From positions 1 through 64,000 of the forward strand of contig JACOEL010000013.1 in NCBI GenBank assembly GCA_024998625.1: a DNA stretch of 64,000 bases, given 5' to 3'. Shown here piece after piece: positions 48,514 to 59,600 of this stretch. The notes under the pieces were generated by a model. It was not told the DNA's origin. It ran no database searches and saw only the letters and a list, made by a program, of their open reading frames with translations. Each line of letters opens with the position of its first letter. Within the stretch, counting starts at the first letter, position 1. This stretch comes from Nitrospira sp. (GTDB lineage: Bacteria > Nitrospirota > Nitrospiria > Nitrospirales > Nitrospiraceae). A program made the position numbers and the translations under genes.

Positions 48514-50214
48514 ATGATTGTCGCGCTCTATGCACGGGTTTCGACGAGTAAACAGGCGGAGAAAGATCTCTCCATTCCAGACCAACTCAATCAGATGCGG
48601 GCTTGGTGTCAGGCTAGCGGCCATACGGTGGGTGCGGAATATGTGGAGCCTGGCGCGTCGGCCACAGACGACCGGCGCCCGGTCTTTCAGCGCATGATTG
48701 GTGAAGTGTGTGTAAAACCTTCCCCCTTTGAGGCCATTGTGGTGCATAGCTTTTCTCGCTTCTTCCGGGATGCAATCGACTTTGGGATGTATGAACGGAA
48801 GCTGAAGAAATACGGGGTATCCGTGCAGTCCATCACTCAGCAGACCAGTGATGATCCTTCCGGTGAGATGATGCGCCAAATGATTAGTGTGTTCGATCAA
48901 TATGCGAGCAAAGAAAATGGCAAGCATACGCTGCGGGCTATGCGTGAAAATGCCAGGCAGGGTTTCTTCAACGGTTCGCGTCCTCCGGTGGGCTACCGCA
49001 CGGTGGAGGTAGAACTTCCCGGCAACAAGGGGAAGAAAAAACGGTTGGAAGTGGAAGATAGTGAAGCGGTCGTGGTGAACCGAATCTTTCAATGGTACCT
49101 GCATGGAGATCGAGGCCGGGAGCTTGGGCTATATGGGGTGGCGGCGCGTTTGAATGAACAAGGTGTCCTCATTCGGGGCCGCCAATGGACCAAGGGCCGT
49201 ATCTATGAGGTTTTGACCAACCGGGCCTATATCGGTGAGCACTATTTCAACAAATACGAAAAGCGAGGCAGGGATGTTCGGCGGATGAAGCCACGGGAGG
49301 AATGGGTGCCGGTCAAAGTCGAACCCATTGTGAACCAGGACCTGTTCGTGGCCGTGAAAGAGAAGTTGGAATCCAGATCCCCTGAGAAGGTTCCGCCGCG
49401 GGTCGTCAATTGCCCTACGCTTCTTACTGGATTACTGAAATGCGGGGTTTGTGGGTCCGGGATGACGCTGGCAACCGGCAAAGGTGGGAAGTATCGCTAT
49501 TACAAGTGTTCAAGTCGGATTCTCAAGGGGAAGGACACCTGCGCAAGCGAAAACCTCCCCACTGAGCTGGTTGATCGGCTCGTTCTGACCTCGTTGGCAG
49601 ACAAGGTCTTTACGCCCTCACGAGTCCAAGCCATGTTGGAAGGGCTTAGGAAGCGTTTGAGGCTGTCCCAAACCGATTATGAGGGGAAATTGAAGCAGTT
49701 GACCAAGGAAGTCGAAAGCCTGCAACACAGAAGCAATCAGCTCTATGAGGCGGTAGAGAAGGGTTTGTTACCGATGGACGAGACGTTGACCGCTCGGGCC
49801 AACAAAATACAGGCTCAGCGGCAGGCCTTATTGCTCGAAATAGCGGGGCTTCGACGGCTGAAGCAAATGCCTGTGGATGCGCTTGGAGAGAAGAAGGTGC
49901 AGGGCTTTATCACGGTCTTGCGTGAACGGTTAATCGAGAAAGACCGCTCCTTCAGCAAGCACTATCTCAAGCTTCTCGTCGATGAGATCCGGTGTCTCGA
50001 TAAACAGCTTGTGATGAAAGGGAGCTATGCAGCGCTTGCCAAGATGGTTGGAGAAACTAAAAAGGGCACCCCAGATAGTGGAGTGCCCAGTTTTGGTCTA
50101 GATTGGCTCCCCGGTCTGTATCCTCGTCGGACGCTCCGGTTCGCATTAATGATCAGGTCACGACCGCTATCCATAACGCCGAAAAACTGGATTGAGGGAA
50201 AATCGACTAGTTAA
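48514..50214 (+). CDS. Large serine recombinase of element 1
   Basis: A 566-residue recombinase. The resolvase domain has catalytic Ser10 in LYARVSTSKQ and the arginines of VHSFSRFFRD; a recombinase domain follows, then a zinc ribbon (CGVCGSGM, CSS, C) and a coiled coil (about 390-450). Expected to join tRNA-Asn attB with the element end. AAGGGTAAGG precedes ATG 48514. The 3' part encodes a terminator-like hairpin and crosses att-core copy B, so the last 60 residues are probably adaptive read-through. Relation to the second recombinase (59.6 kb) is only moderate. Confidence 0.9.
   Translation: MIVALYARVSTSKQAEKDLSIPDQLNQMRAWCQASGHTVGAEYVEPGASATDDRRPVFQRMIGEVCVKPSPFEAIVVHSFSRFFRDAIDFGMYERKLKKYGVSVQSITQQTSDDPSGEMMRQMISVFDQYASKENGKHTLRAMRENARQGFFNGSRPPVGYRTVEVELPGNKGKKKRLEVEDSEAVVVNRIFQWYLHGDRGRELGLYGVAARLNEQGVLIRGRQWTKGRIYEVLTNRAYIGEHYFNKYEKRGRDVRRMKPREEWVPVKVEPIVNQDLFVAVKEKLESRSPEKVPPRVVNCPTLLTGLLKCGVCGSGMTLATGKGGKYRYYKCSSRILKGKDTCASENLPTELVDRLVLTSLADKVFTPSRVQAMLEGLRKRLRLSQTDYEGKLKQLTKEVESLQHRSNQLYEAVEKGLLPMDETLTARANKIQAQRQALLLEIAGLRRLKQMPVDALGEKKVQGFITVLRERLIEKDRSFSKHYLKLLVDEIRCLDKQLVMKGSYAALAKMVGETKKGTPDSGVPSFGLDWLPGLYPRRTLRFALMIRSRPLSITPKNWIEGKSTS
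50056..50096. terminator. Hairpin inside the recombinase 3' end
   Basis: GGGCACCCC and GGAGTGCCC surround a short loop with AAAAA on the left and AGTTTT on the right, giving a bidirectional terminator shape just before att-core copy B. It lies inside the recombinase reading frame. Confidence 0.55.
50103..50114. repeat. Central attachment-core repeat (copy B)
   Basis: TTGGCTCCCCGG, identical over 12 bases to the tRNA-Asn 3' end at 59558-59569. It is the proposed junction of elements 1 and 2. Confidence 0.75.
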
Positions 50215-52315: not shown

Positions 52316-53110
52316 CTAGCGACTGAGGATCTCGAGGATCTCGTCCAGGGGGCGGATGGTTCCCAACAACAAGGGATCACCAAAACGCTTATTGTGTCGA
52401 TTCTCTTTGACCTTGAGCAGCCCGATGACGAGATTGTTAAAGTCGTCTAGCTTGGATGTCTCAAAATAGGTGATAAAATCCCAATCATCCAACCCGCTTG
52501 CGTGATACAGCTTCCGTTTGACGGTCTTCAAATAGCTCACAGTGGCGTCGGTATGCTCTTTCATCATGCCGTTTCGAGCATCTTGCCCAGAGATCCACCA
52601 CTCTGCGTCCTTGCGTATAGGAACAACGATGACGTACGGACTGCCCTGGGGCGGCGGTGTTTTCAATTCAGCCTTCAATTCCTCAGGAAAGCTGGGCACA
52701 TACGCCAACGCCTTTGTGATGCCATTGAAGGTATATGTGTTTTTTAAATGTTTGCCTAGAGTAGTGCCCATTAAATCAATGAGAAAGTTTTGGTTGGACA
52801 GTATCTCCGGAGAGTGGATGCGCACTAGAAAATCGGCCTTCTCAACGAGCCCTCTCAGCAAATAGGCATCGGTGATGACTGTCTCGCTATGTTTTTGGAA
52901 CACGGCCTTCATTTCCGACACTGCAGACATCCTTGCAGGCTTATCCAGCTTCCACCAGTCCTCATCGACCTGGAAAACCGCGAAGGTTCCATAAACGCCT
53001 GGGTCCTTAAGCAGCTTATCCCGATCCATGGCCGCCTCACTCACCAATGAGAGGAGGGGAAGCAGGCAGGTTAAAAGCGTCAACATGGCAATTTGACTGA
53101 GTTTCTTCAT
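52316..53110 (-). CDS. cld: Periplasmic chlorite dismutase
   Basis: A 264-residue heme enzyme that converts chlorite to chloride and oxygen. A signal peptide (LSQIAMLTLLTCLLPLLSLVSEA) gives export. Conserved active-site residues can be placed by alignment to the known Nitrospira enzyme with an offset of 26: proximal H186, distal R199 (TVKRKLYH), K167 and E236 (VKENRHN). The DEDWW, GLDDWDFITYFE and FGDPLLLGTIRPLDEIL segments complete the match. AAGGAG lies before ATG 53110. It follows a kinase and response regulator on the same strand and has a phased array of GTGA boxes at its promoter. Confidence 0.93.
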   Translation of the reverse strand: MKKLSQIAMLTLLTCLLPLLSLVSEAAMDRDKLLKDPGVYGTFAVFQVDEDWWKLDKPARMSAVSEMKAVFQKHSETVITDAYLLRGLVEKADFLVRIHSPEILSNQNFLIDLMGTTLGKHLKNTYTFNGITKALAYVPSFPEELKAELKTPPPQGSPYVIVVPIRKDAEWWISGQDARNGMMKEHTDATVSYLKTVKRKLYHASGLDDWDFITYFETSKLDDFNNLVIGLLKVKENRHNKRFGDPLLLGTIRPLDEILEILSR

Positions 53111-53156: not shown

Positions 53157-53217
53157 CTTATAAAGGATAGGCATCTCTTCTCACAGCGGTCTCACGAAAT
53201 GGTCACATTTTTATCAC
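53157..53217 (-). promoter_or_regulatory. cld promoter with four phased GTGA boxes
   Basis: On the plus strand TCAC occurs at 53181, 53192, 53203 and 53214, each exactly 11 bp apart (GTGA on the coding strand). A TATAAG -10 box lies at 53162-53157, so the last box falls where the -35 element should be. OmpR/PhoB-type regulators bind direct repeats with this 11-bp spacing next to a poor -35. Transcript start would be near 53150. Confidence 0.7.
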
Positions 53218-53253: not shown

Positions 53254-54732
53254 TTAAGAGCGAGCAGTAGCTAATTCAAAGCTAATGGAGGTTCCAACGT
53301 TGGGGCTGCTTTCTGCCCGAATTGTACTTCCATGAAGCTCAATAATTCGCTTTGTGATGGCGAGCCCAAGTCCGGCTCCTCCAGATTGGTCTTCCCGATT
53401 CGCTTTATAAAAGCGGTCAAATATATAAGGAAGGTCGTGTGCTTCAATGCCGCAACCCGTATCATAAACGCATACCATGACTGAGCCGGGTTTCGGGCTT
53501 AACGAAACCACAATTGTACCGCCGGCTGCAGTGTAACGTGCGGCATTCTGAATGATGTTCTCCAACGCCCGCTCGATGAGGCCGATGTCGGCCTCTACAA
53601 ATGGAAGATCGCTTGGAAAATTGCTGTTCAAAGCTATCCCCTTGTTCGCAACGGTGAGTTGAAACTTTTGACACACATCCTGCACGAGCTCGGCTATAGA
53701 AAATTCTTCGCGTTGTATACTGGCTTCACGTGAATCCAAGCGAGCCAGTTCAAAAAGCTCTCCCACCAGTTCCCTCAGCCGTTCGCTTTGCTTTAGAGCA
53801 ATGTCTAAAAAGGTCCGATGTTCCTCTTGGGTAAGCGTTCCTTCCTTCATCAACAATGTCTCTAAGTATCCATGAAGAGATGCCAGGGGTGTCCGCAAAT
53901 CATGAGACACGTTGGCCACTAACTCACGCCGAAGGACGTCTGTCTGCTTGAGAGTGGCCACTTGCTGAAGAATGCGTTGCACCATCCGATGGAACGTTGT
54001 CCGAAGTCGATCTATCTCATCACCTTGCCGCTCTGGAATAAGGTCCTGCGGTAGTACCCCTGCGCTTGCTGAAAAATCGTTCTTCGCAAATGTTTCCATC
54101 GTCAATGCCAGCTTAGTGAGTCTCCTTGTAAGCATGTTGAAAAGAAAAAGACCGGCCAAGAGAGCGAACAGTAGGCCAGTGAGTGCCGTCCAGACGCTCA
54201 AACGGAGAATGTAGCTCCGTCGCAGCATGTCGACCACGGAGTCATATTCTTCTCCGCCCAGAACAATGTACAGATAGCCCGTTGGCTCTCCTGATAAGGG
54301 TATCGGAGCGGCGGAAAAAACCTTTTTGCGAGAAGCATCGCGGGGATCATCGCCGAGAATAGGGAATGCATCCGTTTGAGCCAGAAAGTTCTGGATTGGA
54401 TCTAGTGATACAGACGAGCGTTTGACCTTCTCAGGAGGAGCGGAGAAGTTAGTTATAATCCCGTTCGCATCAAGCAAGTACATTTCAATGCTTGGATTGA
54501 CAACCATGAGCAGATGAAAGAGTTCTTTGAGCGCATAGGGGCTGACCTCTCCTTGGCTACTCAGCAGCTGATCAGCAACGATGTTTCTAGCCAGGCTGCG
54601 GTTCAGCTTCTGATTGACCTCCTGCTGATACATGCCGGTCGTGAAGACCGTAAGCAGGGTATATAAAAGCCCAACGGCGCAAAATAATAGAAGCCAAACG
54701 AGGGCGAGTTTGCCGTAAAGCGACCGCGTCAT
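53254..54732 (-). CDS. Two-component sensor histidine kinase (cld-associated)
   Basis: A 492-residue membrane kinase. One membrane segment near residues 8-30, a periplasmic sensing domain of about 135 residues, a second segment (LSVWTALTGLLFALLAGLFLFNML), a HAMP linker, the phospho-acceptor H277 in VANVSHDLRTPLASLHGY, and an ATPase domain (NAARYTAAGG, DTGCGIEAHD, GAGLGLAITKRIIE). The periplasmic position suits sensing an exported enzyme's substrate. It starts two bases after the response-regulator stop, and cld begins 143 bp after its end. Confidence 0.92.
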   Translation of the reverse strand: MTRSLYGKLALVWLLLFCAVGLLYTLLTVFTTGMYQQEVNQKLNRSLARNIVADQLLSSQGEVSPYALKELFHLLMVVNPSIEMYLLDANGIITNFSAPPEKVKRSSVSLDPIQNFLAQTDAFPILGDDPRDASRKKVFSAAPIPLSGEPTGYLYIVLGGEEYDSVVDMLRRSYILRLSVWTALTGLLFALLAGLFLFNMLTRRLTKLALTMETFAKNDFSASAGVLPQDLIPERQGDEIDRLRTTFHRMVQRILQQVATLKQTDVLRRELVANVSHDLRTPLASLHGYLETLLMKEGTLTQEEHRTFLDIALKQSERLRELVGELFELARLDSREASIQREEFSIAELVQDVCQKFQLTVANKGIALNSNFPSDLPFVEADIGLIERALENIIQNAARYTAAGGTIVVSLSPKPGSVMVCVYDTGCGIEAHDLPYIFDRFYKANREDQSGGAGLGLAITKRIIELHGSTIRAESSPNVGTSISFELATARS

Positions 54733-54734
54733 GA

Positions 54735-55454
54735 TCAGTTCCCTAGTCCTGATGTTCCTAGTTCACAGAATTTGTACCCGACGCCCCACACGGTCAGAAT
54801 AAATTCGGGGTTGGCGGAATCCTTTTCGATCTTGCTGCGCAATCTGTTGATATGCGAATTCACGGTATGCTCATAGCCGTCGTGACCATATCCCCAGACC
54901 GCATCGAGAAGCTGAGATCGAGTATAAACACGGCCAGGATGGAGGGCGAACTGAAGGAGTAAATCGAATTCTTTGGCCGTGAGATCGACGGGATCGCCTC
55001 TCACGACCACCTTTCGTTTCTCAATATCGATGTAGAGCCGGTCCCCTCGTATAATTTTCTGCAGGTCCTGCGTCTTATCGCTGAAGGCTTCTGAACGGCG
55101 GAAGAGGGCCTTAATCCGCGCGAGCAATTCCCGAACACTAAACGGTTTGGTTACATAGTCGTCAGCGCCCACTTCCAGCCCGAGGACACGGTCCAGTTCC
55201 GATGATTTCGCCGTCAACATGAGGATGGGTGTATAAGTGGAAAGCGATCGAATCTGACGGCATATCTCTAACCCGTCGATGCCGGGAAGCATCACATCGA
55301 GAATAATAAGGTCATAGATCTTCGAGCGAACAGACTGAAGACCATCCTTTCCAGTTCTGGCAATGTCTACGGCGTAGGCTAGATCGGTCAGATGCATATT
55401 CAAGAGCCGACCAATATCCAAATCGTCTTCAACTACAAGGATGTGTTTCGCCAT
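54735..55454 (-). CDS. OmpR/PhoB-family response regulator (cld-associated)
   Basis: A 239-residue regulator. The receiver has acidic pocket ED-D (9-11), phospho-acceptor D53 in LIILDVMLPG and Lys in TKPFS. The C-terminal winged helix shows VDLTAKEFDLLLQFALHPGRVYTRSQLLDAVWG and VNSHINRLRSKIE. It is the first gene of the regulator-kinase-cld series. Two GTGA boxes 11 bp apart lie about 50-65 bases upstream, matching the four boxes at cld, so it likely controls itself and cld. Confidence 0.93.
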   Translation of the reverse strand: MAKHILVVEDDLDIGRLLNMHLTDLAYAVDIARTGKDGLQSVRSKIYDLIILDVMLPGIDGLEICRQIRSLSTYTPILMLTAKSSELDRVLGLEVGADDYVTKPFSVRELLARIKALFRRSEAFSDKTQDLQKIIRGDRLYIDIEKRKVVVRGDPVDLTAKEFDLLLQFALHPGRVYTRSQLLDAVWGYGHDGYEHTVNSHINRLRSKIEKDSANPEFILTVWGVGYKFCELGTSGLGN

Positions 55455-55502
55455 GTCTGCCTGCGCCGAGAGATAATGAGAAATGCCTTAGCATAGCGCC
55501 CA

Positions 55503-55517
55503 TCACAAAATCATCAC
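55503..55517 (-). promoter_or_regulatory. Two phased GTGA boxes upstream of the response regulator
   Basis: TCAC occurs at 55503-55506 and 55514-55517 (start to start 11 bp) in CATCACAAAATCATCACA. The 7-base unit CATCACA is repeated exactly. It is the same core and phase as the array at cld. Confidence 0.65.
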
Positions 55518-57490: not shown

Positions 57491-58056
57491 AGGGTCTACC
57501 TAGTCTGCTCGCTTCGTTTATCCAGTGGTTGCGACGACCGGAGCGCTTTATTCATAAACTCCAATCCATCTACCCGAAGGGGCAAATGGTGCCCTTCCAT
57601 CAGCATGAGGAAATGGCCGGGAATCAAGGCGTGGAAGTTCTCGAAACAACCTTCGGCCCGAACATTGATGGGATGACAACGCGAGACGGCGAGCAGGTGA
57701 TGATTGTCCTTCGTAGAGGACTGAACCCATTGACACGTCAGTTTGTCGTCGCCCACGAACTGGGGCATGTACAATTGCACCTCCCTGAGATGAACGAAGT
57801 AGACGCGTATCGATCCACATCGCCCAACGATCATCGAGATATCGAAGCAGACGCATTTGCGCTGGTCTTTCTTATCGGATCGCTGCCGAAGGAGCGGCTC
57901 GCTCACGAGGTGTTCCTCTATGTCTTGAACAATCGCGGGCTGGCCTGGCGTGCATTCCGCGTGATTTGCTATCTGTCCTGGTACAAGCAGAGAATTCATC
58001 TAGCGAACTGGCTCGAACGCCACTTGGTAGGCTTTCACGCAAAAGGAACCGCATAA
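57487..58056 (+). CDS. ImmA/IrrE-type metallopeptidase
   Basis: A 189-residue putative zinc protease. H90-E91-x2-H94 (VVAHELGHVQLH) is the catalytic motif, with downstream acidic ligand region IEADAFALVFL. Members cleave a partner XRE repressor to release operon expression. GAGGG precedes ATG 57487. The TAA stop overlaps the recombinase ATG (TAATG). Confidence 0.85.
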   Translation: MKGLPSLLASFIQWLRRPERFIHKLQSIYPKGQMVPFHQHEEMAGNQGVEVLETTFGPNIDGMTTRDGEQVMIVLRRGLNPLTRQFVVAHELGHVQLHLPEMNEVDAYRSTSPNDHRDIEADAFALVFLIGSLPKERLAHEVFLYVLNNRGLAWRAFRVICYLSWYKQRIHLANWLERHLVGFHAKGTA

Positions 58057-59600
58057 TGGCCGCGACACTCGCTCCCACGATTTGTGGCCTCTACACAAGG
58101 GTCTCCACTCGTAATCAAGCCGACACGGAATACAGTTCTCTCGAAACCCAGCGCGAAAAGCTCGAGGCGTACTGTAAAAGCCAAGAGCAATATGTCGTCT
58201 ATCGCGTCTATGAGGACGCCGGCTTTTCTGCCGACTCAATGAACCGCCCTGCATTGAAGGAGTTACTCCAAGATATCCGTGCTGGTCGGATTAGCTGTGT
58301 ACTGGCCTATAAGATCGATCGATTGACCCGGTCTGTGAAAGATTTTCATGTTTTGATGGACCTGTTCGACCGGCACGGAGCTAAGTTTGTATCCATCACG
58401 CAGAGTCTCGATACCCATCATCCGATGGGACGATTGTTGCGGAATATCTTATTAGATTTTGCTCAGTTTGAACGGGAAATGACGGCGGATCGCACCCGAG
58501 ACAAGATGCAACAACGGGCTACGAAGGGATTATGGAATGGGGGTAATGTTCCCTTTGGCTACCAGAATGAAGGCAAGCGCCTCGTGAAGCATCCCCAAGA
58601 GTCTCTCTATGTGCAGTTTATGTTTCAGTTCTTTACTAAAGATCCCTCACTAGCTCGCCTGCGTGACGAATTACATCTCCGAGGCTGGTATTCTCGCTCT
58701 GGAAAGCCATGGGGCAAGATGTCGCTCGATTATATCTTGAGAAATCCCACCTATTACGGACAGGTACAGTTTAATGACCAAATCTTTCAAGGCGAGCATC
58801 CGGCGCTAATTGAAGAAGGCCTGTACCATAAGGTGCAGGCACTCGCCCGTGAACATACCCGTGTTGAAACGAAGTTCCAACGGACGTTTCTGCTAAAGGG
58901 GTTGTTGAAGTGCAGCGTGTGTCAGTCGGTCATGACTCCCCACTACACACAGAAACGCCGGAAAGATCAGTCAATTAATCGGATTGCATATTATCGATGC
59001 TCGAAAACTATGCATCACAACAATACAGTCTGCACCGTGAAAGCTCTCAATGCGAACGAGGTCGAGCGGCAAGTCATCGAACATCTGGCCGAACTGAGCC
59101 AACATGCCGAATGGGTCACAACTACCGTGGAGGACTTGAATCGAGATCAAAAAGAAAGGGTCCGTCCGCTGGAGCAGGAGGCCATTCGTTTGACGGCAGG
59201 GCTCAACAAATTGGAACGGGAGATTGATCGGTTGGTCCGAGGAGTAGGGCAGGGGACCGTATCAGTCCAGCGCCTTGAACAAGAGATGCACCGTCAGCAC
59301 AAAGAGCAGCAGAGTCTAGAAGCGCAGTATCAAGCAGTCCATCGTCAGATCCAAGAGCACCTAGCCAGGGAGTATGACTCAGAGGTTGTCATCCGCAATC
59401 TCCAAGATTTTCAAAGAGTTTTTGCCGCGTTACTACCCAAGGAACAAGCAGAGGTGCTTCGATGTCTCGTAAGGGATATCGACGTATACCCCGACAAGCT
59501 TGTCTTCAACATCTTTGAGCTTGCCGAGATAGGGACGAGTTCGAAGAAGCGTACAGGTTGGCTCCCCGGGCAGGACTCGAACCTGCGACCAGCCGGTTAA
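58056..59600 (+). CDS. Large serine recombinase of element 2
   Basis: A 514-residue recombinase. Catalytic Ser17 in LYTRVSTRNQ, YKIDRLTRSVKDF and EREMTADRTRD belong to the resolvase domain; the recombinase domain, a zinc ribbon (CSVCQSVM, CSK, C) and a coiled coil (about 365-430) follow. ATG 58056 is coupled to the ImmA stop. The last 14 residues (WLPGQDSNLRPAG) are encoded by the antisense of tRNA-Asn, so the gene ends inside att-core copy C and the tRNA. The true protein may be insensitive to that tail. Confidence 0.9.
   Translation: MAATLAPTICGLYTRVSTRNQADTEYSSLETQREKLEAYCKSQEQYVVYRVYEDAGFSADSMNRPALKELLQDIRAGRISCVLAYKIDRLTRSVKDFHVLMDLFDRHGAKFVSITQSLDTHHPMGRLLRNILLDFAQFEREMTADRTRDKMQQRATKGLWNGGNVPFGYQNEGKRLVKHPQESLYVQFMFQFFTKDPSLARLRDELHLRGWYSRSGKPWGKMSLDYILRNPTYYGQVQFNDQIFQGEHPALIEEGLYHKVQALAREHTRVETKFQRTFLLKGLLKCSVCQSVMTPHYTQKRRKDQSINRIAYYRCSKTMHHNNTVCTVKALNANEVERQVIEHLAELSQHAEWVTTTVEDLNRDQKERVRPLEQEAIRLTAGLNKLEREIDRLVRGVGQGTVSVQRLEQEMHRQHKEQQSLEAQYQAVHRQIQEHLAREYDSEVVIRNLQDFQRVFAALLPKEQAEVLRCLVRDIDVYPDKLVFNIFELAEIGTSSKKRTGWLPGQDSNLRPAG
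59558..59569. repeat. Right attachment-core repeat (copy C), tRNA 3' end
   Basis: TTGGCTCCCCGG contains the complement of the encoded CCA, the discriminator and the first acceptor bases of tRNA-Asn. Copies A and B share 11 and 12 bases with it. Confidence 0.75.

Follow-up and report, generated by a model that had tools for sequence, protein, structure and literature searches.

A phased four-box GTGA array before a second chlorite dismutase gene of Nitrospira is the probable operator of a PhoB-type two-component system

What decides when a Nitrospira cell makes a second chlorite dismutase? The question is raised by a locus in the window, by which we mean the whole 64,000-nucleotide stretch of Nitrospira sp. 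DNA analysed here, in which a response regulator gene (rr) and a sensor histidine kinase gene precede a chlorite dismutase gene (cld), and in which the 143-bp gap between the kinase gene and cld holds an array of four GTGA boxes. The features concerned are as follows.

52316..53110, minus strand: cld, encoding a second, apparently periplasmic chlorite dismutase (PF06778; catalytic His and Arg)
53157..53162, minus strand: TATAAG, the -10 element of the first-pass annotation, not conserved when relatives are compared
53164..53169, minus strand: TATCCT, the conserved -10 element, 11 nt beyond box 4
53181..53184, minus strand: GTGA box 4, promoter-proximal, on the -35 zone
53192..53195, minus strand: GTGA box 3 (sequence and comparison of module loci)
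53203..53206, minus strand: GTGA box 2 (sequence and comparison of module loci)
53214..53217, minus strand: GTGA box 1, promoter-distal, conserved in all module loci
53254..54732, minus strand: sensor histidine kinase (HAMP, HisKA and HATPase_c by domain search)
54735..55454, minus strand: rr, an OmpR/PhoB-family response regulator with the recognition helix HTVNSHINR

The first-pass annotation had read TCAC on the plus strand, which is GTGA on the coding strand of cld, at 53181, 53192, 53203 and 53214, each 11 bp from the next, and the sequence confirms this. With one mismatch allowed, the array is the sole match in the 4.4-Mb genome, while a reversed control pattern gives none; under a model based on the dinucleotide frequencies of the window, exact four-box arrays are expected about 4e-5 times per 64 kb, or 0.0025 times per genome.

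The core promoter had to be redrawn. TATAAG, first proposed as the -10, is confined to this locus and, in the form AATAAG, a single close relative; the aligned gaps of the module loci instead retain TATNCT (TATGTT in G061), 11 nt past the last box. Of 33 distinct arrays from across the family, 31 have TANNNT at exactly this distance, and the other offsets from 3 to 23 nt give a single match between them. A consensus scan for the hexamer pair, which is a crude test, found no sigma-70 promoter with a -35 element at the cld array site, and in the E. coli phoA promoter GTCA-CGGCCGAGACT-TATAGT leaves the same gap of 11 nt between the last repeat and the -10. The lack of a -35, the conserved -10 at a fixed distance and the match to phoA together give the arrangement expected of a promoter that depends on an activator at its -35 zone. 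Direct repeats of 11 nt are textbook for PhoB-type regulators (PMC4415409), and the spacing between pho box and core promoter has been reported to be strict (PMC10294691).

The same geometry bears on the opposite possibility, that the regulator on the array represses cld by occupying the -35 zone and excluding polymerase until a signal frees the promoter. Box 4 does overlap the -35 zone, and PhoB-type regulators are able to repress as well as activate, according to the position of the site (PMC10294691). A repressor site, however, has no need of a fixed 11-nt gap, yet the gap is kept in nearly all the distinct arrays; nor is there a recognisable -35 for polymerase acting alone, and the gap is that of an activated promoter, phoA. 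We therefore regard repression as unlikely.

Whether the boxes recur in the cld promoters of relatives with the same kinase/regulator pair had been set beforehand as a check. They are present in all 13 cld loci that keep the pair, 11 of which have four exact boxes and two of which (G004 and G010) have three boxes and GTAA in place of box 4, a count inflated by the many near-copies among the genomes compared. All the second cld copies seen with their upstream DNA lie behind the same kinase and regulator and carry the array, and no phased boxes were found before cld copies that lack the pair, comprising core copies and copies 68-74% identical in other Nitrospira assemblies. When four divergent loci were aligned, 16 of 16 box positions were invariant; away from the array and the promoter, 33 of 92 positions were so.

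The upstream regulator, which had been called OmpR/PhoB type at the outset, does contain Response_reg and Trans_reg_C domains. Its recognition helix is identical in 36 of 36 aligned orthologues, in the cld clade and the clade with lactonase-type targets alike. An unchanging helix together with unchanging boxes before varied targets is what would be expected if the regulator reads the boxes. The periplasmic sensor region of the kinase matched no Pfam name in the domain search; the orthologues have in common a PILGDDPR-type motif and no conserved cysteine. An AlphaFold model of the kinase, built on three sequences and aimed at its sensor fold, had a mean pLDDT of 44 and was set aside.

Could another DNA-binding protein, either a relative of CRP/FNR or a different OmpR-type regulator, be the one that uses the boxes? 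TGTGA does look like half of a CRP site, further OmpR-type regulators are encoded in the genome, and the cld of Ideonella is under FNR (PMC7349173). A palindrome of the CRP/FNR kind (TGTGA-N6-TCACA or TTGAT-N4-ATCAA) is nevertheless ruled out at the array, all of whose repeats are direct and have no inverted partner, while the remaining OmpR-type regulators of the genome have recognition helices that differ from HTVNSHINR, and the arrays track the kinase/regulator pair across genera and targets. It is thus very improbable that the boxes belong to a protein other than the adjoining regulator.

Of 236 genomes from the order, 38 encode a relative of the kinase (48-87% identical); outside the genus most of these do not adjoin cld, and their loci nonetheless have the same four-box array. 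In some of these loci the array lies 101-110 bp before a gene for a secreted lactonase-like beta-propeller (PF10282), and in others upstream of a gene for a methionine-rich DM13 lipoprotein (PF10517), so that the targets downstream of it are not homologous, at loci where identity to the window's kinase is only 53-60%. Genes for an ECF sigma factor, a thioredoxin-like protein and a DUF3047 protein often lie close by. Where the propeller gene comes first, the array could drive it together with rr and the kinase gene. A search of the 29 genomes of the genus, run without a positive control, found no propeller relative at E 1e-30, so the regulon in the genus seems to consist of rr and cld only. By ancestry, the pair is not a dedicated chlorite regulator: its orthologues set the same operator before a propeller or a DM13 lipoprotein, so that the signal probably extends beyond chlorite. 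Those DM13 lipoproteins that are encoded after four-box arrays (L155:7590-8239 and L156:7840-8811) are possibly a periplasmic oxidant sink. In more distant orthologous loci, two phased boxes precede a gene for a Spondin_N-domain protein or an ECF-like sigma gene (L171:2086-2920 in G186; L169:8127-9056 in G225).

Of 175 genomes of the family, 36 have the pair, and 31 of these also have the four-box array; among the 139 that lack the pair, the array occurs in 6 (Fisher p = 3e-23, a value that overstates independence because the genomes are related). Since array and pair are neighbours, the association is also in part the inheritance of one block of DNA, and a stronger case comes from the fact that flanks and targets diverge. 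Three of the six array genomes scored as lacking the pair (G065, G121 and G143) have plainly homologous arrays: the stretch read in G121 contains the regulator and a cut kinase gene, that of G065 ends at a contig edge after the propeller gene, and that of G143 holds no kinase. The idea that the boxes arose by chance or are neutral passengers of the operon is scarcely credible, for although near-copy genomes inflate the counts, the flanks diverge while the boxes stay and the same array recurs before unrelated targets, and a chance origin is ruled out by the array's uniqueness in the genome, its low expectation and the conservation of boxes relative to flanks.

A second, shorter set of boxes lies before the regulator gene itself.

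55490..55495, minus strand: TATGCT, the candidate -10 of the regulator gene, 7 nt past the second box (motif searches and comparison)
55503..55517, minus strand: two phased GTGA boxes (GTGA-N7-GTGA), a candidate autoregulation site

When GTGA-N7-GTGA-N(7-12)-TATNCT was searched for in the 29 genus genomes, it was found at 22 sites, all of them rr or cld promoters of 12 genomes with the module, plus one stray unrelated site; the reversed control gave 2 matches. In the cld clade 7 nt separate the last box from the -10 candidate, as against 11 nt in the lactonase-clade loci that have both boxes. Activation at the rr promoter of the cld clade is doubtful, because its -10 candidate lies 7 nt and not 11 nt from the last box. 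The difference between the clades amounts to a 4-bp shift of helical face (window:55490-55517). The two phased boxes in the regulator's promoter are new here, as is the finding of the promoter with four boxes, an 11-nt gap and TANNNT before other targets in other genera.

Our preferred reading, to which we assign a probability of roughly 0.82, is that a PhoB-type, self-regulating, activated two-component promoter, into which cld was captured once, has this array as its operator. A stimulated kinase would phosphorylate the response regulator, which would then occupy the four boxes in a head-to-tail arrangement along a single face of the DNA helix, probably in the form of two tandem dimers. The bound regulator would stand in for the -35 element and hold sigma-70 polymerase on the TANNNT -10, 11 nt past box 4, so that the second, apparently periplasmic chlorite dismutase would be switched on; the same regulator may also bind the two boxes before its own gene, as autoregulation. 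The PhoB-type control first suggested for this locus is supported by the OmpR/PhoB regulator, the 11-bp repeats, the phoA-like gap and the way the boxes travel with the pair, while its -10 has been replaced. A broader proposal is more tentative, and we think it possible at best: the kinase may sense a periplasmic oxidant, such as chlorite or other reactive chlorine or nitrogen species, with the same operator driving an undescribed oxidant defence in other genera (the secreted lactonase-like propeller, the methionine-rich DM13 lipoprotein, and the ECF sigma factor and thioredoxin-like protein encoded nearby), and with cld captured once together with the operator and then spread on mobile DNA.

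As regards the enzyme, the protein encoded by cld belongs to the same family as Nitrospira defluvii Cld (3nn1), its closest solved structure, and alignment to 3nn1 places both the proximal His and the distal Arg. These two residues are features of active chlorite dismutases. The second copy is likely to be catalytically active, and its N-terminus, judged by eye only, resembles a signal peptide. The core cld copy of the same genome is 52% identical to the second copy and has no boxes, which would leave the second copy as the only one controlled by the array. Throughout the genus (29 genomes), a core cld about 52% identical to the window's occurs in nearly every genome and a second copy, 78-91% identical, in a subset; cld has been assigned to the Nitrospira core genome (PMC9714041). 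The structure 3nn1 is itself, by inference, a core copy, since an N. defluvii assembly has a module copy with 79% identity to the window cld, well above the match to 3nn1. Further copies have other surroundings: one that is about 70% identical and lacks the pair (L042:4911-5914) follows genes for an ECF sigma factor and a zf-HC2 anti-sigma factor, L045 and L047 have similar upstream sequence, and ECF sigma genes related to that of L042 are also found near lactonase-type loci. Another copy, about 73% identical, is preceded by a small protein without a Pfam match (L036:5527-5913), and L037-L039 and L044 are alike upstream.

The kinases that adjoin cld form one clade (support 100/100), in which G061 is basal, its cld and kinase both being about 72-75% identical to the window's. 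A single association of cld with the system is the simplest account; in G009, the contigs end short of the region that bears on an independent capture of cld. The module is flanked on either side by a large serine recombinase gene.

48514-50214: large serine recombinase gene
57966-59600: large serine recombinase gene

The block at 55.6-62 kb is common in its entirety to the window and G006 (L069), while only the two block genes nearest the module were found in L061, L064 and L067. The flanking recombinases, together with this patchy sharing, suggest mobile DNA. A small cysteine-rich protein without a Pfam match (window:55563-55811) is conserved upstream of the module in several relatives. In G134, a genome of another genus, a 3.2-kb contig (C164, locus L126) has a module that nearly matches the one in several genomes of the genus, with the kinase fully identical, which may reflect recent transfer or a binning error.

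Compared with known systems, the locus resembles E. coli phoA and PhoB in its 11-bp direct repeats, the family of its regulator, the distance of 11 nt to the -10 and the absence of a -35 consensus. It differs in having GTGA and not GTCA as the core, and four boxes as against the two shown in phoA; the recognition helix HTVNSHINR and the targets (cld, the lactonase-like propeller and the DM13 lipoprotein) likewise set it apart from PhoB. The only worked cld promoter that we found is the FNR-dependent one of Ideonella dechloratans (PMC7349173). Activator-dependent control of cld, as proposed here, would be common to both, whereas in Ideonella it involves an FNR inverted repeat and an anaerobic signal in place of the direct repeats of a two-component system. 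OmpR-family regulators, histidine kinases and ECF sigma factors are listed near cld by Barnum and Coates 2022 (PMC9751292), the parts of which that we consulted give gene lists and no operator or promoter architecture. In open-licence papers we found no description of a two-component operator for cld or of such a regulon, and in the open-licence literature nothing on two-component control of the lactonase or DM13 genes or on DM13 in connection with chlorite.

Nitrospira are widespread nitrite oxidisers, and a second copy under a sensor of its own gives a direct handle on why they need cld: the trigger of this promoter would tell when the cells meet chlorite. The exchange of regulon members, with cld in some loci and a propeller or a DM13 protein in others while operator and recognition helix stay as they are, shows cleanly how targets can be replaced under a regulator that remains constant. 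The sequence of the operator also offers a search key for further members of the regulon.
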